Position numbers and translations under genes: made by a program
NCBI GenBank assembly: GCA_019634955.1
Contig: JAHCAK010000004.1
Location: 1 to 64,000, forward strand
DNA length: 64,000 nt
Direction: 5' to 3'
Source of the DNA: Burkholderiales bacterium
GTDB lineage: Bacteria; Pseudomonadota; Gammaproteobacteria; Burkholderiales; Usitatibacteraceae
Part shown: positions 23,292 through 43,587 of the stretch, one piece after another
Layout of the letters: every line of letters starts with the position of its first letter
How positions within the stretch are numbered: position 1 is the first letter of the stretch
Notes under the pieces: generated by a model
What the model saw: the letters and a program-made list of their open reading frames with translations, nothing else
Told to the model about the DNA's origin: nothing
Databases searched by the model: none

Positions 23292-25430
23292 ATGCCCGCA
23301 AGACCCGTCCACGGTGAAACGACCCGCGAGGTGCGAGACGCGCTCGCGGAGGCGTTTTCCGTGTCCGTCACCAGCGAGCTCGCCGCCGTGACCGAGCTCC
23401 TCGAGCACCAGCTCCAGGCGACCGAGGACCGCGACAAGTGGCGCCCGCTCAGGCAGGCGATCGACGCGGTGCGCGATCTCGGGCACACCCTGCGCGGGCG
23501 GCTGGACGCGCACGTGAGGGAACGCATCGATGCCAAGCTCTCCCCCGGCAAGGACGCGTTCTCGCAAACGGCGAGGTTCTCGCTCGAGTCGCTCACCCTC
23601 GTCTCGGAGGACGAGGTGCAGGAGGAGATCGCCATCGGCAATGCGGCGCGCCGCCTGCGCGAGGCGACGACGGACGCCTTTTTCACGCTGAACGCGCGGC
23701 TCGCCGCGGCCGTCGGCGCGGAGCGCTTCCCGGAAGACAAGAGCCCGGTGCACCCGCGGGCGTTCGCGCGCGCGCTGCTGGATGCGATCGGGGAAGCCAC
23801 CGAGGACCGCGCCGTGCGGCTCGCCGCCTTCGCGGCCTTCGACCCGGCGATGCTGCACGCGCTGCCGAAGGCCTTCAAGGCGGGCAACGAACTGCTCGTC
23901 CACCGCGGCGTGCTCCCGGAACTGCGCCGCAGCTACGGAGCGCCGCAGCAAGTGCCCGGCGCGCGGGCCTCCATGCACGGCATGGAAACGGCCGGGGGCG
24001 CCCCGGTGGACGCTCCCCGCGCGCAGCCGGCCGCGCCCGCCACGCCGCGGGCCCTCTTCGACCGCCTGCTCGCGGCTGCGGCGGCGCCGGCACCCGCGCC
24101 TGCGCCGGAGCCCGCCCCCACCAGCGCCGGCCTCGTGACGCTGCAGGTGCGGCCAGAACTGGTGGAAGCGCTGCGGAGCCTGGAAGCCCGGTTGGCAACG
24201 ACCGAGCCCGCCGCGATGGCCACGCCCTCCCCGCCCTCGCCCGATATCGTGCGCCGCGCGCGCGACGACATGGGCGACGCGCTTACGCCCGCCGACGGCG
24301 TCGTGGCCGACCTGGTCGCGGCCATGTTCGGCCGGCTCTTCGACGACCCCGAGGTCTCGGACGCCGCGAAGGTGCAGCTCGGGCGCATCCAGCTGCCGGT
24401 ATTCAAGGCGGTGATGGCCGACCGGCGCTTCTTCACCGACCCGCACCACCCCATCCGCGGCCTCATCGATCGCATTGCGGAGCTGGGCGCCGCGGGCAAC
24501 GGCACGCCCGTGGACGGCCGCCACACGCACGAGTGGCTGGCGCAGGAGACAGAGGCCCTCCTCGCGGGCAACGCCTTCGACGAGGGATCCTTCGCCGCCG
24601 CGCGCGACCGCCTGGCGCAGGTGGCGCAGCGCCACCACGAGGCCGCGGACGAGGCCGACGACGTCGTGCAATCGGTGCGCAAGGAGGACGCGAAGGCCAC
24701 CGCGCTGCAGGAGGCGGCCCTCGAGGTGGCCCACCGCATCGACGCCGCCAAGTGCCCGCCCGTGACGGCCGCCTTCGCCTACCGGGCCTGGCGCCCGGTG
24801 CTGGAGCACGACCACCGCACGGCCGGCGCCGGGTCGCCGCAGTGGAACGCCGACATCGAGACGCTGGAAGACCTGCTGTGGACCCTCACGCCGCGCGCCA
24901 CGGCGGCAGAGCGCGAGAAGCTCAAGGCCCTCATGCCCACGGTTCGCTACCGCATGTGGCAGGGGCTGATCCGGGCCCAGCTCCCCACCGGGACGATCGA
25001 GGGCCTGCTGGACGAGCTGGACGGCATCCACGGCGTGATGCAGCGCGCCCCGCTTGCCGCCGCGCAGCACGAGCTGGCCACCACGGTCGCCTTCTCGCGC
25101 CCGGCGCGCGACGATTTCACGGCGACGCTGCACGTGAACTCCGAGGAGATCCGCGACGAGGGCCTCACCCGCGGCGCCTGGTACGAGTTCACCGAGGACG
25201 ACGGCACGGTGCGGCGCGCGCGCCTGGCCTGGGTGAGCCCGGTGCAGGGCGCCTGCGTTTTCAAGGACATCGCGCGCAACCGCTCCTTCGCCATCTCGCT
25301 CGCGGACCTGCGGGCGAAGCGCGAGGCGGGACGGGCGAGGCCCGTGGACGGGCCCGGCGTGGCGCGATCCTCCATCGAGGGCGCGCTCGAGGACGTGGCC
25401 CGCGAGCGGGGCGCCGTGGCCTCCGGTTGA
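23292..25430 (+). CDS. DUF1631-family protein
   Basis: 712 residues, soluble and helix-rich. Residues 1-240 and 320-700 match the betaproteobacterial DUF1631 family by general pattern (LEHQLQATEDRDKWRPLRQAI, MFGRLFDDPEVSDAAKVQLGRIQLPVFKAVMAD). A low-complexity Pro/Ala linker occupies about 230-275. The C-terminal 100 residues resemble a PilZ-like beta-barrel (GAWYEFTEDDGTVRRARLAWVSP, CVFKDI), so a cyclic-di-GMP or nucleotide-binding role is possible, though the canonical R-x3-R is not seen. Function unknown. TAAACT at 23261-23266 could be its -10. Confidence 0.75.
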   Translation: MPARPVHGETTREVRDALAEAFSVSVTSELAAVTELLEHQLQATEDRDKWRPLRQAIDAVRDLGHTLRGRLDAHVRERIDAKLSPGKDAFSQTARFSLESLTLVSEDEVQEEIAIGNAARRLREATTDAFFTLNARLAAAVGAERFPEDKSPVHPRAFARALLDAIGEATEDRAVRLAAFAAFDPAMLHALPKAFKAGNELLVHRGVLPELRRSYGAPQQVPGARASMHGMETAGGAPVDAPRAQPAAPATPRALFDRLLAAAAAPAPAPAPEPAPTSAGLVTLQVRPELVEALRSLEARLATTEPAAMATPSPPSPDIVRRARDDMGDALTPADGVVADLVAAMFGRLFDDPEVSDAAKVQLGRIQLPVFKAVMADRRFFTDPHHPIRGLIDRIAELGAAGNGTPVDGRHTHEWLAQETEALLAGNAFDEGSFAAARDRLAQVAQRHHEAADEADDVVQSVRKEDAKATALQEAALEVAHRIDAAKCPPVTAAFAYRAWRPVLEHDHRTAGAGSPQWNADIETLEDLLWTLTPRATAAEREKLKALMPTVRYRMWQGLIRAQLPTGTIEGLLDELDGIHGVMQRAPLAAAQHELATTVAFSRPARDDFTATLHVNSEEIRDEGLTRGAWYEFTEDDGTVRRARLAWVSPVQGACVFKDIARNRSFAISLADLRAKREAGRARPVDGPGVARSSIEGALEDVARERGAVASG

Positions 25431-25440
25431 TTCAGGTCAA
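25427..25440. promoter_or_regulatory. FNR/Anr-like palindrome upstream of a candidate sRNA
   Basis: TTGAT-TCAG-GTCAA matches nine of ten FNR consensus positions and is the exact reverse complement of the 14-base site before the hydrogenase operon (43574-43587). It overlaps the TGA stop of the DUF1631 gene. Its centre (25433.5) placed at -41.5 predicts transcription rightward from about 25475, with TACCCT (25462-25467) as a weak -10. Confidence 0.5.
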
Positions 25441-25474
25441 AAGAATTTCCGGGCGGGGACCTACCCTTTACGCA

Positions 25475-25571
25475 GTCGCGCAGCTCACCGCGCGGAAGGG
25501 CTTCCCCGCCGTTCCCCCAGGTACGGCGATTTTCTCCGGCAAGGCCGCAAGGTCATTGCCGGTTTTCTTTT
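25475..25571 (+). ncRNA. Candidate FNR-dependent small RNA (about 97 nt)
   Basis: The region between the FNR-like site and the intrinsic terminator has no plausible coding frame. It folds locally into a perfect 6-base stem CGCCGT/ACGGCG (25507-25512 with 25523-25528) presenting the C-rich loop TCCCCCAGGT, which is complementary to Shine-Dalgarno sequences. A terminator hairpin follows. A GGAAG/CTTCC stem precedes it near 25495. Size, terminator and C-rich loop are typical of trans-acting sRNAs, and FNR/ANR-activated sRNAs (FnrS, PhrS, AniS) are known elsewhere. Start site is inferred; no expression evidence. Confidence 0.4.
25536..25571 (+). terminator. Intrinsic (Rho-independent) terminator
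   Basis: Stem CCGGCAA (25536-25542) and TTGCCGG (25556-25562), extendable by GGCC/GGTC-type partial pairing inside, followed by TTTTCTTTT (25563-25571). The U-tract points to rightward termination, so it ends transcripts of the DUF1631 gene and/or the candidate sRNA. The OmpA-like gene on the opposite strand has its stop at 25587. Confidence 0.7.
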
Positions 25572-25586
25572 CCGGGCCACGCTGCC

Positions 25587-26447
25587 CTACTTGCGCACCA
25601 GCTCCACCCGCCTGTTCTTCGCCCTGCCCTCCTCGCTGCGGTTGTCGGCCACGGGGCGCTCCTGCCCGAAGCCCGCGGCGGAAAGGCGCTTCGCGTCGAT
25701 GCCGCCGGCCACGATGGCGGCCATGACGCTCTGCGCCCGCTTCTCGGAGAGCGACTTGTTGGCGGCCGCCTGGCCCACGTTGTCGGTGTGGCCCTCGATC
25801 GCGACCTTGAGGGCCGGGGCGGACTTGAGCGCCGCCACGATCTCGCGCACGGTGGCCTGCCCGTCGGACTTCAGGTCCCACTTTCCCGTGTCGAAGTTGA
25901 TGTAAAGGGCGATGAAGCCGTTGCGGTTCAGCTCGTCGAGCAGCTTGTTCGCGCTGACCACCTGCTGCATCGCGGCCACCTCCACGACCTGCAGCCGGTA
26001 GCTCTGGGCGGGGGCGCTGAAGATCTCCGGCTCCACGCGCACCCACACCTCCTTGCCGCCCGTCGCCACCCTGAGCGTCGTCTCGCCGCCGTCGCCCTCG
26101 CGCGGCAGGCGCTCGTAGACGACCTCGCCCCCGATTGCCTTGACGGCATTCTGGTAGTTGCGAAGCAGCTGCAGCGGGCTGGGCTGCTTCTGCGGGTCGC
26201 CGTGGAAGTAGCGGATCACCGTCGCATCGCCCTCCACCGCCTTGCGCTGCGGCTCGCCGCCCTGCTGCCCCACCGCGAACTCGACGGCGTTGTAGTTCTT
26301 CTCGTACTCGGCGATGTGGGAGCCGGGGTAGCGCGTGAGGAGCGGGTGGTCCTTCGACTTCGGCACGTCCGGGGCGGGGAACACCGCGCAGGGCAGGGCC
26401 AGCGCGGCCATGAGGACCAGGCGTTGGAACGGCTTCAAGGGGGTCAT
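25587..26447 (-). CDS. OmpA-family outer membrane/peptidoglycan-associated protein
   Basis: 286 residues. A signal peptide (MTPLKPFQRLVLMAALALPCAVFPAPD) gives the start at 26447; upstream in-frame sequence is Arg-rich and non-coding in character. An N-terminal domain (27-150) of unknown type precedes the OmpA-like peptidoglycan-binding domain: IALYINFDTGKWDLKSDG, VAIEGHTDNVGQAAANKSLSEKRAQSV and SAAGFGQERPVADNRSEEGRAKNRRVELV. The domain binds diaminopimelate in the cell wall. The N-terminal part resembles proteins that carry DUF4892-like or unknown OmpA fusions. Confidence 0.88.
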   Translation of the reverse strand: MTPLKPFQRLVLMAALALPCAVFPAPDVPKSKDHPLLTRYPGSHIAEYEKNYNAVEFAVGQQGGEPQRKAVEGDATVIRYFHGDPQKQPSPLQLLRNYQNAVKAIGGEVVYERLPREGDGGETTLRVATGGKEVWVRVEPEIFSAPAQSYRLQVVEVAAMQQVVSANKLLDELNRNGFIALYINFDTGKWDLKSDGQATVREIVAALKSAPALKVAIEGHTDNVGQAAANKSLSEKRAQSVMAAIVAGGIDAKRLSAAGFGQERPVADNRSEEGRAKNRRVELVRK

Positions 26448-26529
26448 TCCGGGGCTCCTCGCGGGAAGAGGCAGCCAAGTTAGCGCACGGCGGCGCGGTC
26501 GTCCAACGGCGGCGCGTGCGCGGGCCGGC

Positions 26530-26850
26530 TTACGGGTCGATCGCCGCGAGCGCCGCGCCGATGGCGCCCGCATCGCCGGGCCGCACGAGTCGCGACGCCT
26601 CGCGGCCATCGGCCAGGAACACCAGCGTCGGCCAGAGCTTCACGCCGAAGGAACGCCCCAGCGGCCGGCCCCGCCCGTCGGCGACCTTCAGGTGGCGCAC
26701 GCGCGGGTGGGCGGCCAGCGCCTCCGCGACGAGCGGCTGCGCCGCGCGGCACCAGCCGCAGGTGGGGCTGCCGAACTCGAGCAGCGTCGGCCCGGGCAGC
26801 GCATCGACCTGCGCGCGCGCGGGCTCGGTGTCGGCGTAGGCCTCGGCCAT
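26530..26850 (-). CDS. Thioredoxin-like protein
   Basis: 106 residues without a signal peptide, so cytoplasmic. Thioredoxin fold with redox motif C-G-W-C at residues 31-34 (FGSPTCGWCRAAQ) and the cis-proline segment LWPTLVFLADG near 73-83. It would reduce or isomerise disulfides, or act as a specialised reductase. ATG overlaps the TGA of the upstream DUF3592 gene. It is the last gene on the minus strand after the hydrogenase cluster, but a role in hydrogenase assembly is not implied by its sequence. Confidence 0.85.
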   Translation of the reverse strand: MAEAYADTEPARAQVDALPGPTLLEFGSPTCGWCRAAQPLVAEALAAHPRVRHLKVADGRGRPLGRSFGVKLWPTLVFLADGREASRLVRPGDAGAIGAALAAIDP

Positions 26851-38610: not shown

Positions 38611-39228
38611 CTAGCGCTCGAGCGAGGCGCGCAGCGCGAGCAGCCGCGCGTCACCGACACGGCAGGCTTCCTGCTCGCTGGGGCGGCCGGATTCGTAGGC
38701 GTCGATGGCGAGGCTCGCGTCGAAGAGCGGCGCGGCATCCCCGGGGGCGCGCGGCACGCCGGGAACGCCCCAGGCGGCGAGCGCGTCCAGGCCCGCCTCC
38801 AGCGCGCGCGGCAGCCTCTCGCGGACGACGTCGGTGAGGCTGCCGCCGAAGTCCTTCAGGTGCTTCGGCTGCACGCCCACCAGCACCGCGCGCTCGGGCG
38901 AGTGGCCGGAGAGCTGGGCGAGCGAGAGCACCTCCTGGAAGCTCGACTGGTGCAGGCTCATCTTGCCCACGCCGATGTAGTGCGGGATCTCGTCGTCGCG
39001 CACGATCTGCAGCGTCCCGGGCTCGAGGCCGTAGTCGATCGCGTCGAAGACGAGGATGCGGCGCGCGGCCTGCACGTGGGGCAGCAGGTAGAGCCCCTGG
39101 GTGCCGCCGTCCATGAGGGTGACCGACTCGGGGAAGCGCCAGCCCTCGTTCAGCGCCGCCACCGCCCGCACCCCGAAGCCCTCGTCGGCCCAGAGCACGT
39201 TCCCGATCCCCAGCACCAGCGTGTCCAT
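38611..39228 (-). CDS. hupD: Hydrogenase large-subunit endopeptidase HupD/HoxM
   Basis: 205 residues. N-terminal LVLGIGNVLWADEGFGVRAV carries the nickel-sensing Glu16; other ligands are Asp in LVFDAIDYG (near 62) and His in KMSLHQSSF (near 93). The protease removes the C-terminal peptide of the large subunit after nickel insertion. It is separated from the structural genes by the HigA-like gene and an FNR-like site 72 bases before its start, so the maturation genes may have their own promoter here. Confidence 0.94.
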   Translation of the reverse strand: MDTLVLGIGNVLWADEGFGVRAVAALNEGWRFPESVTLMDGGTQGLYLLPHVQAARRILVFDAIDYGLEPGTLQIVRDDEIPHYIGVGKMSLHQSSFQEVLSLAQLSGHSPERAVLVGVQPKHLKDFGGSLTDVVRERLPRALEAGLDALAAWGVPGVPRAPGDAAPLFDASLAIDAYESGRPSEQEACRVGDARLLALRASLER

Positions 39229-39299: not shown

Positions 39300-39313
39300 T
39301 TGATGCCGGTCAA
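39300..39313. promoter_or_regulatory. FNR/Anr-like palindrome upstream of hupD
   Basis: TTGAT-GCCG-GTCAA matches nine of ten FNR consensus positions. Its centre is 78 bases upstream of the hupD ATG, comparable to the spacing at the hydrogenase structural operon. At -41.5 the start would be near 39265 on the minus strand; a convincing -10 hexamer is not obvious there (AAGATG or TGTAAC). Confidence 0.5.
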
Positions 39314-42239: not shown

Positions 42240-43325
42240 CTATTTCCCCTCGGGTTTCGTGGAACCGGGTTTCTCGGAGGCTTTCCTGATCGCGGTCACC
42301 GCGGCGTGCGCCACGACCGCGGCGCCGACCACGCCGGCCGCGACGGCGCCGACCTTGTCGGCGTTCGCCTCGATCCCGAAGGCCGGGATGTTCGTGAGCC
42401 GGTCGTAGAAGGAGCCCTTGTCCCAGAAGCCGTCCTCGGAGCAGCCGATGCAGCCGTGGCCCGACTGGATCGGGAAGGACACGCCCTCGTTCCAGCGCGT
42501 GGTCGAGCACGCGTTGTAGGTGGTCGGGCCCTTGCAGCCGACCTTGTAGAGGCAGTAGCCCATGCGGGCGGCCTCGTCGTCCCACTTCTCGACGAACTGG
42601 CCGGCGTCGAAGTGCGGGCGGCGGTAGCACTTGTCGTGGATGCGCTGGCTGTAGAACATCTTCGGGCGGCCCTGGCGGTCCAGCTCGGGGATGCGGTCGA
42701 AGGTGAGCACGTAGGTGACGATGGCCGTCATCACCTCGGCGATGGGCGGGCAGCCCGGCACCTTGATGATCGGCTTGTCGGTGATGACCTTGTCGATCGG
42801 CACCGCGTTGGTGGGGTTGGGCTTGGCGGCCTGCACGCAGCCCCAGGAGGCGCAGGAGCCCCAGGCGATCACGGCCTTGGCGTCCTTCGCGTACTTCTTG
42901 AGGGTCTCCACGAAGGGCTTGCCGTAGTAGATGCAGTACATCCCGTCCTCGTTGAGCGGCGGGTTGCCCTCCACGGCGAGGATGTAGTTGCCCTTGTGCT
43001 TCTCGATCGTCTCGTGGGCGTTGGCGCGCAGCTGCTCGCCGGCGGCCGCCGAGAGGGTCATGTGGTAGTCGAGCGACAGGAGCGAGAGCACCGCGTCCTT
43101 GGCCAGCGGGTGCGCCGAGCGGATGAAGGACTCGGAGCAGCAGGTGCACTCCAGGCCCTCGATCCAGATGACCGGGGTGCGCGGCTTGTTCTCCAGCGCG
43201 TGCGCGATCTGGGGCGCGACCGTGGGCGAGAGCCCCAGCGAGGCCGTCGTCAGGCTGCAGAACTTGAGGAAGCTGCGCCGCGAGATGCCCTGCCGGCGGA
43301 GCACGTCGTAGAAGGTCTCAGTCAT
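42240..43325 (-). CDS. hupS: [NiFe] hydrogenase small subunit HupS/HoxK, oxygen-tolerant type
   Basis: 361 residues. A Tat signal with RRSFLKF (residues 16-22) spans 1-45. The proximal cluster ligands are Cys60, Cys63, Cys158 and Cys192, and the two extra cysteines of the [4Fe-3S] cluster are present: Cys62 (ECTCCSE) and Cys163 (GSCASWGC). The medial and distal clusters use [20 protein letters not shown] and [11 protein letters not shown]-terminal membrane anchor lies near 332-354. The six-cysteine pattern marks group 1d, oxygen-tolerant hydrogenases (MBH of Cupriavidus, Hyd-1 of E. coli). Confidence 0.97.
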
Positions 43326-43506
43326 GGTCCTTGTCCCCTTTCCGGCCGGAGAGCAGCACGCCCGCGATCACGGCGAGGATCCCGCCCAGCGCGAGGAGGT
43401 CGACGAAGTGGTGGGCCTCGCCCACGGCGCCGTGCCCGGGGTGGCCCCAGGCGGCGGTCGCGGCGGCGGCGAGGACGAGGGTGGTGACAGCGGCGGTGAG
43501 CTTCAT
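43318..43506 (-). CDS. Small histidine-containing membrane protein heading the hydrogenase operon
   Basis: 62 residues. A signal-like hydrophobic start ([21 protein letters not shown]) is followed by [17 protein letters not shown], then a membrane helix ([15 protein letters not shown]) and a charged tail GRKGDKDHD. The HPGH motif after the cleavage site recalls HupE/UreJ nickel permeases and DUF6732 small proteins, but it is too short to be a permease. The His cluster would lie in the periplasm. RBS gaggagg precedes the ATG, and its end overlaps hupS by eight bases. A nickel-related role is only suggested. Confidence 0.65.
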
Positions 43507-43573: not shown

Positions 43574-43587
43574 TTGACCTGAATCAA
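43574..43587. promoter_or_regulatory. FNR/Anr-like palindrome upstream of the hydrogenase structural operon
   Basis: TTGAC-CTGA-ATCAA matches nine of ten FNR consensus positions. Its centre lies 74 bases before the first gene of the hydrogenase operon (ATG at 43506). The rest of the roughly 300-base intergenic region (43507-43805) holds no gene. A TACACT hexamer at 43742-43747 may be a -10 for the divergent TRAP operon. Confidence 0.5.

Follow-up and report, generated by a model that had tools for sequence, protein, structure and literature searches.

The DNA analysed here is a window of 64,000 nucleotides (the whole stretch, to which all positions refer) on contig C34 of the draft genome G000, from a little-known and apparently uncultured betaproteobacterium of the Burkholderiales family Usitatibacteraceae. 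In this window, a DUF1631 gene and a convergent OmpA-family gene leave a gap of ~155 bases, and the unit under study, a candidate small RNA (sRNA) gene, is found there at 25427-25571 on the + strand. Its parts follow each other on this strand in the order dyad, TACCCT, stem-loop 1 (SL1), UC-rich linker, SL2, SL3 and TTTTCTTTT (Table 1). An earlier annotation made from the letters alone (hereafter the original prediction) had proposed a dyad, a class II TACCCT, a perfect stem with a C-rich loop and a terminator hairpin at this place, all of which were confirmed by direct reading and by their recurrence in six of eight genomes of the genus. The dyad differs from TTGATNNNNATCAA at one position, and its centre falls at -41.5 if +1 is at 25475, which corresponds to class II geometry. 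The stem of SL2 is a perfect 6-bp helix (CGCCGT/ACGGCG).

Table 1. Parts of the candidate sRNA unit and its flanking genes, with window positions
Feature	Position	Strand	Remarks
FNR-type dyad TTGATTCAGGTCAA	25427-25440	+	Read directly; half-sites TTGAT/GTCAA
-10-like element TACCCT	25462-25467	+	21 nt 3' of the dyad, class II spacing
Predicted sRNA transcript	25475-25571	+	~97 nt; start inferred from the -10 element, end from the terminator
5' hairpin SL1, short, GC-rich	25476-25495	+	Predicted fold; sequence and length vary among species
UC-rich linker CUUCCCC (GGGCTTCCCC in DNA)	25501-25507	+	Invariant in 6/6; first putative anti-Shine-Dalgarno motif, role inferred
C-rich hairpin SL2, loop UCCCCCAGGU	25507-25528	+	Invariant in 6/6; second putative anti-Shine-Dalgarno motif
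Intrinsic terminator, SL3 plus TTTTCTTTT	25536-25571	+	Predicted; 4/11 stem pairs with two-sided changes
SL3 hairpin, CCGGCAA...TTGCCGG	25536-25562	+	
Terminator tail TTTTCTTTT	25563-25571	+	
DUF1631 gene (PF07793), left neighbour	23292-25430	+	Family match
OmpA-family gene (PF00691), right neighbour, convergent	25587-26609	-	Family match

A unit conserved within one genus

The genus was represented by eight genomes (G000-G007, including that of the window), and of 61 genomes searched at the DNA level, nine gave matches with an E of 0.01 or lower, G000 among them. The complete unit (dyad, -10, C-rich element and terminator) is present in six of the eight (G000, G001, G002, G004, G006 and G007), so that the co-conservation search suggested in the original prediction found dyad, stem-loop and terminator together in five of the seven other genomes of the genus; neither DNA nor covariance model searches found the unit in the congeners G003 and G005. 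The DNA matches L007 and L009 (29 and 33 bases) lack dyad and terminator and were dismissed as chance, whilst the matches L008 and L010-L012 extend over 22-33 bases only, the last three of them covering the surroundings of the dyad alone.

Alignment of the six sequences revealed invariant bases at 11 of the 14 dyad positions, 4 of the 21 spacer positions and 4 of the 6 positions of the -10 element, with both half-sites identical in all six genomes and the centre of the dyad variable. TANNNT occurs exactly 21 nt past the dyad in every one of them, whereas the distance from dyad to core spans 74 to 100, which indicates a fixed geometry of the promoter and an RNA whose 5' portion is free to vary. 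The SL1 region is gapped and aligns poorly, and the RNA is predicted to be 97-123 nt long in the relatives. The C-rich element consists of 28 contiguous bases identical in the six genomes. In the adjoining end of the DUF1631 gene, compared over 244 codons in the five genomes that have it, codon positions 1, 2 and 3 are invariant at 58%, 64% and 34%, respectively, and the longest identical run is 17 nt. These amount to fewer than six independent observations, because G002 and G004 are 90% identical in the DUF1631 end and G001 and G007 have near-identical flanking proteins elsewhere in the genome.

The DNA on either side of the unit is far from constant. The DUF1631 gene of G001 is internally deleted, with just its two ends left and joined in a short remnant (L005:1150-1407), and the unit stands intact beside it. 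The right neighbour is OmpA in G000 and G002; a small gene and a GNAT-like gene (named by eye) precede OmpA in G006, a Fic-like gene (also by eye) takes this place in G004, and G001 and G007 carry other sequence there. All five congeners with a DUF1631 ortholog or, in G001, its remnant at this locus keep dyad, -10, C-rich element and terminator. A search for DUF1631 yielded nothing close in G003 and G005 (29% identity, or no match at all at E 1e-10); the same search also missed the G001 remnant. Relatives of the DUF1631 gene in the genus g4 (G012, G014, G016 and G018) are 47-49% identical, and in the first three the gene is directly followed by another one (enoyl-CoA hydratase-like by eye), with no dyad. 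The original prediction had held that absence of the dyad and C-rich loop from relatives keeping the DUF1631 gene would speak against it: no such loss was seen in the five congeners, and outside the genus it is seen in G012, G014 and G016. The unit is thus a genus-level feature. In G018 (L092), a dyad-like site with two mismatches, CTGACCGCGATCAA, lies 22 nt past the DUF1631 stop codon, with TAGACT 24 nt further on and then a start codon; this is possibly a different FNR-type promoter at the same place, on a contig that ends ~100 bases after the stop codon.

Since the switch, the C-rich hairpin and the end signal are kept together while the surrounding DNA changes, a genuine sRNA gene is likely. 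As the original prediction proposed, we consider it very likely, on the strength of the sequence comparisons, that this stretch is a free-standing sRNA gene, a reading sustained by the unit retained beside a decayed DUF1631 in G001, by the differing right neighbours and by the stability of the predicted fold. The folding energy of 25475-25571 has a z of -3.1, with none of 200 shuffles as good, and the covariation score over all 17 pairs was 0.196 versus 0.101 in shuffles, with 0 of 500 as high. Four pairs have changed on both sides, all of them in SL3, versus 1.8 in shuffles (7 of 500 as high). In SL3, 95.5% of the alignment cells are paired; sliding it by one column still left three two-sided pairs, but just 38% of cells paired. 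The predicted fold has three stem-loops with a conserved UC-rich linker and SL2 loop, that is, an NmsR-type plan. Both the linker CUUCCCC and the SL2 loop UCCCCCAGGU, whose sequences complement G-rich ribosome-binding sites, are predicted to be unpaired or weakly paired in most folds of the six species. In G000 and G004 the linker forms a weak hairpin of 3 bp, and it pairs elsewhere in some of the other predicted folds. Eight promoter-spacer bases (25452-25459, GGCGGGGA) are the exact complement of linker bases 25503-25510 (TCCCCGCC), the spacer arm of this pair sitting upstream of the predicted +1.

Some structural results weigh on the other side. Fold stability is unremarkable in G001 (z = -0.31) and weakly unusual in G007 (-1.92), and the number of further pair types (7 versus 5.7 in shuffles, 51 of 500 as high) is not outstanding. 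The bulged SL3 hairpin is absent from the listing of the terminator scan. The SL2 stem shows no variation at all across the six genomes, and covariation is for this reason uninformative on it.

Searches against known families and more distant genomes delimited the distribution further. None of 4227 Rfam families matched the whole window at gathering score, and at a relaxed threshold over 25400-25600 the best E was 0.5 (anti-hemB, 14.1 bits, gathering 49.5), with FnrS not among the matches. FnrS is an Rfam family. A covariance model, R1, was built from the six members, whose scores of 92-98 bits are therefore obtained by construction, and run against 28 genomes from the family and 300 from the order. 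The search, which the original prediction had recommended, recovered the six members and revealed no convincing core in the 20 further family genomes outside the genus or in the 300-genome order sample; no g4 genome had a strong match to the core. The strongest match outside the genus (G065, locus L055, G065:C31:104149-104228) reached 40.7 bits (E 4e-9), no other exceeding 29 bits. Here a strong hairpin resembling a terminator follows a different small stem, and a dyad-like site with two mismatches lies 137 nt upstream. The match was judged unrelated by eye, though a distant relationship may also be considered. Of 46 loci with weak R1 matches, four are cut by a contig end, and none of the remaining 42 has a dyad with 0 or 1 mismatch within 170 nt upstream. 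An architecture pattern (dyad, 21 nt, TANNNT, 25-55 nt, TTCCCC) matched 5 of 369 genomes of the class, G000 included, and the other four loci lack all of three 10-base core pieces. The exact 20-mer core yielded five records in a GTDB-based collection, namely the same five congeners, as metagenome-assembled genomes (MAGs). Within the family, order and class samples and the 20-mer search, the core was found in this genus only; divergent homologs outside the genus could have been missed by these searches. No paper on this sRNA was among those listed by searches of the open-licence PMC literature. Judged by its parts, the unit would be an FNR-type trans-acting sRNA, a known functional class, with no Rfam match at threshold. 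As a candidate it is well supported and restricted to one lineage, and conservation of its C-rich element is very strong.

Predicted pairing of the C-rich stretches

Taken as a whole, the locus is probably an FNR-activated gene for a trans-acting sRNA with anti-Shine-Dalgarno action. FNR, active without oxygen, would bind the dyad at -41.5 and activate transcription from ~25475, and the intrinsic terminator would end the RNA near 25571, at ~97 nt. The transcript is predicted to fold into a variable 5' hairpin, the UC-rich linker, the conserved C-rich hairpin and the terminator, whose U-rich tail would suit Hfq. The most likely partners of the two C-rich stretches would be G-rich ribosome-binding sites on mRNAs, with Hfq probably taking part, and this pairing would lower translation of genes unwanted at low oxygen. 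We infer in this way transcription of the unit, a response to oxygen, use of Hfq, anti-Shine-Dalgarno pairing and repression of targets; taken on its own, anti-Shine-Dalgarno repression in trans is a proposition to which we give an even chance. Repression of genes unneeded at low oxygen is our best guess because of the parallels with NmsR, FnrS, PhrS, AniS and RoxS/RsaE.

To our knowledge, sRNAs controlled by FNR or ANR have been described in few bacteria. Their existence outside this genus, to which the original prediction appealed by naming FnrS, PhrS and AniS, is backed by passages of two papers (PMC5703892, PMC4423775). FnrS of E. coli is described as FNR-dependent and hypoxia-induced, regulating central and energy metabolism (PMC5703892), and would resemble the present RNA in its dependence on FNR; it gave no match here even under relaxed Rfam thresholds. 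PhrS of Pseudomonas aeruginosa, according to the same source, is an ANR-dependent sRNA that base-pairs with mRNA, as proposed here, and it differs by its implication in synthesis of the Pseudomonas quinolone signal (PQS) and by the lack of an Rfam match at our locus. AniS of Neisseria meningitidis, likewise a betaproteobacterial anoxia-induced sRNA, appears as Hfq-linked, with a cited paper whose title names control by FNR (PMC4423775); its targets are called elusive (PMC5362039), and its comparison with the present unit was through Rfam only. The plan is that of the Neisseria NmsR sRNAs, also betaproteobacterial, with three stem-loops and a conserved UC-rich SL1–SL2 linker and UC-rich SL2 loop that are partly complementary to the Shine-Dalgarno sequence (PMC5362039). 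NmsRA and NmsRB are unlike our candidate in being a sibling pair and, in the passages of that paper, are not described as FNR-activated; the likeness drawn here is one of layout. Finally, RsaE/RoxS of Firmicutes is a redox-controlled sRNA, under O2/nitric oxide (NO) sensor control, whose C-rich regions can pair with G-rich Shine-Dalgarno sequences (PMC4409812). It is controlled by ResD/SrrA, not FNR, and no homology is claimed.

We tentatively go one step further and picture an oxygen-gated double anti-Shine-Dalgarno riboregulator of an uncultured betaproteobacterial genus, in which an FNR promoter has been joined to an NmsR-/RoxS-like C-rich RNA. It would have been invented or become fixed within this one genus and would outlast decay of its host locus, as a proteobacterial counterpart of the redox-controlled RoxS/RsaE. 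The sRNA candidate, if true, would suggest that oxygen-responsive C-rich sRNAs arise repeatedly, and it would offer a defined promoter and seed.

Candidate targets were sought with the pattern TGGGGGAA N2-14 ATG, which requires a T before GGGGGAA and misses the G004 site described below and others of that kind. It matched 55 times in the six genomes, versus 21 for the reversed-pattern control; 52 matches were re-examined, 35 of which have an open reading frame (ORF) of 60 amino acids or more, with seven homologous pairs. A single pair, a small secreted protein in G001 and G002 with orthologs in six of the eight genomes, joins two distinct lineages. GGGGGAA, complementary to the C-rich loop region, stands just before its start in G001 (L208), G004 (L210) and G002 (L211). 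As a target the secreted protein is a weak lead, with the motif in three of the five genomes that have both unit and ortholog, and does not amount to a conserved one.

Several of these results count against the proposed mode of action. No homologous candidate target appeared in more than two lineages among the 55 Shine-Dalgarno-anchored matches of the six genomes. GGGGGAA is absent before the secreted-protein start in G000 and G006, which bear the unit, and in G003, which does not. A look at TCA-cycle targets, a trait of the NmsR type, gave no signal: for none of eight genes from the sdh-gltA and prp regions did the duplex energy pass the 5th percentile of a background of 1500 random segments of the window, sdhC and sdhD being unscored. 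Hfq is encoded in six of the eight genomes, G000 included, and was not found in the draft MAGs G002 and G007, both of which carry the unit. The alternative that an FNR-type sRNA serves as a sponge for a protein or another RNA and does not pair with ribosome-binding sites has some weight: no conserved target emerged, and the whole of SL2 is invariant, stem included, which is more than a short seed needs. We nonetheless regard the sponge as unlikely, given that no known protein-binding motif was recognised by eye and that C-/UC-rich single strands are pairing regions in RoxS/RsaE and NmsR (PMC4409812, PMC5362039).

FNR and other Crp/Fnr proteins as candidate regulators

Activation of the unit by an FNR-type regulator, as the original prediction had it, is likely on the sequence evidence, with a true FNR encoded in G000 and the same type of dyad before ccoN, hemN and nqrA. 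This FNR scores 236.5 bits against NCBIfam NF008365 (cutoff 228) and has the cysteine cluster CSQCNLRELC and the recognition motif ETVSR; a dyad shared with the divergent hemN lies 54 bases ahead of the start codon of its own gene. The strict dyad TTGATNNNNGTCAA occurs 23 times in the G000 genome versus 0 for the reversed pattern, and 16 of these 23 sites were inspected for neighbours. Sites of this type precede ccoN (TIGR00780), hemN (TIGR00538), nqrA (NF003759) and a DmsE-family decaheme cytochrome gene (TIGR03508), all above cutoff, as well as a molybdopterin reductase gene (L023:2-1312) that is cut at the locus edge and whose best match, ArrA, gave 533 bits, below the 1600 cutoff. Another lies in the window (39300-39313), upstream of the gene for a hydrogenase maturation protease of the HyaD/HybD family (38614-39228 on the minus strand, above cutoff). 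The genes with FNR-type sites in the host genome include those for a cbb3 oxidase, a decaheme cytochrome and an ArrA-like reductase. TANNNT is found 20-22 nt from the dyad, in one orientation, at 5 of the 16 inspected sites, including those of ccoN, nqrA and the sRNA unit, and the nqrA dyad has the identical TACCCT at the same spacing as the unit.

The identical 14-mer TTGATTCAGGTCAA is found three times among the strict genome sites: the second copy, at window positions 43574-43587, has downstream of it a short ORF on the minus strand (43321-43506) that matches no family, and the third, at G000:C75:4726-4739, stands before a rubrerythrin-like gene.

Presence of the regulator was assessed through the cysteine cluster, sought in all six frames of loci L119-L148; there were 65 helix-turn-helix matches, with loci for part of them, and absence of FNR is stated for G004 and G005 alone, for which all such matches have loci. 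The FNR-type cluster is present in six of the eight genomes of the genus (G000, G001, G002, G003, G006 and G007), five of which are among the six with the unit. A Crp/Fnr paralog (L125, L126, L120) lacks the N-terminal cysteine cluster and has the ETVSR motif.

The case for FNR has several points against it. A simple sigma-70 scan of 25000-26200 returned no promoter, and TACCCT is weak as a sigma-70-like -10 element. Dyad-like matches with up to two mismatches to TTGATNNNNATCAA number 11 across the window versus 2.4 expected, and none of 100 shuffles had as many. FNR was not found in G004 (four Crp-type matches; a MAG, 90% complete), which has the unit, and G003 has FNR without the unit. The cysteine-free ETVSR paralog, which could bind the dyad, is present in both G004 and G005, where FNR was not found. 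As a second Crp/Fnr protein with ETVSR exists, we infer FNR as the regulator, and the statement in the original prediction that nothing else explains the FNR-like site was slightly too strong. Control of the site by another Crp/Fnr protein of this kind, for example the L125-type paralog that shares ETVSR in the recognition helix and occurs in G004, with a signal other than oxygen, is nevertheless quite improbable, considering that the same dyad type precedes ccoN, hemN and nqrA in G000 and that a protein with the FNR cysteine cluster accompanies the unit in five of six genomes.

Terminator and coding alternatives

Read from its letters, the stretch is an independent noncoding unit with an intrinsic terminator, and two further explanations would deny it that status. 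According to the first, the hairpins merely terminate DUF1631 or the convergent OmpA gene, and the dyad overlaps the stop codon by chance. The unit does sit between convergent genes, where terminators are expected, and the DUF1631 stop codon TGA (25428-25430) supplies three bases of the dyad. A terminator needs no dyad at fixed distance from a -10 element in six of six genomes, nor 28 invariant bases upstream of it; in addition, the T-run past the stem is on the + strand only, G001 retains the unit after DUF1631 decay, and the right neighbour changes, all of which renders this explanation very improbable.

The second has the dyad driving a gene for a short leaderless protein, or else an RNA with a dual function. 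In its favour, an ATG or GTG at the predicted +1 opens a frame across the core in G001, G002, G004 and G007, and frame 0 is open in three genomes from a start at +1 or close to it. It is just as hard to credit, since no start codon after +1 opens such a frame in G000 or G006, the frames elsewhere differ, the core is invariant at every codon position, and DNA as GC-rich as this often contains long open frames. Relative to +1, the core is read in frame 0 in the genomes G002 and G004, in frame 1 in G007 and in frame 2 in G001, where frame 0 is also open from a start five bases past +1. The ~97 bases called non-coding in the original prediction accordingly have no frame after +1 across the core in G000, and no frame common to all six species crosses the core.

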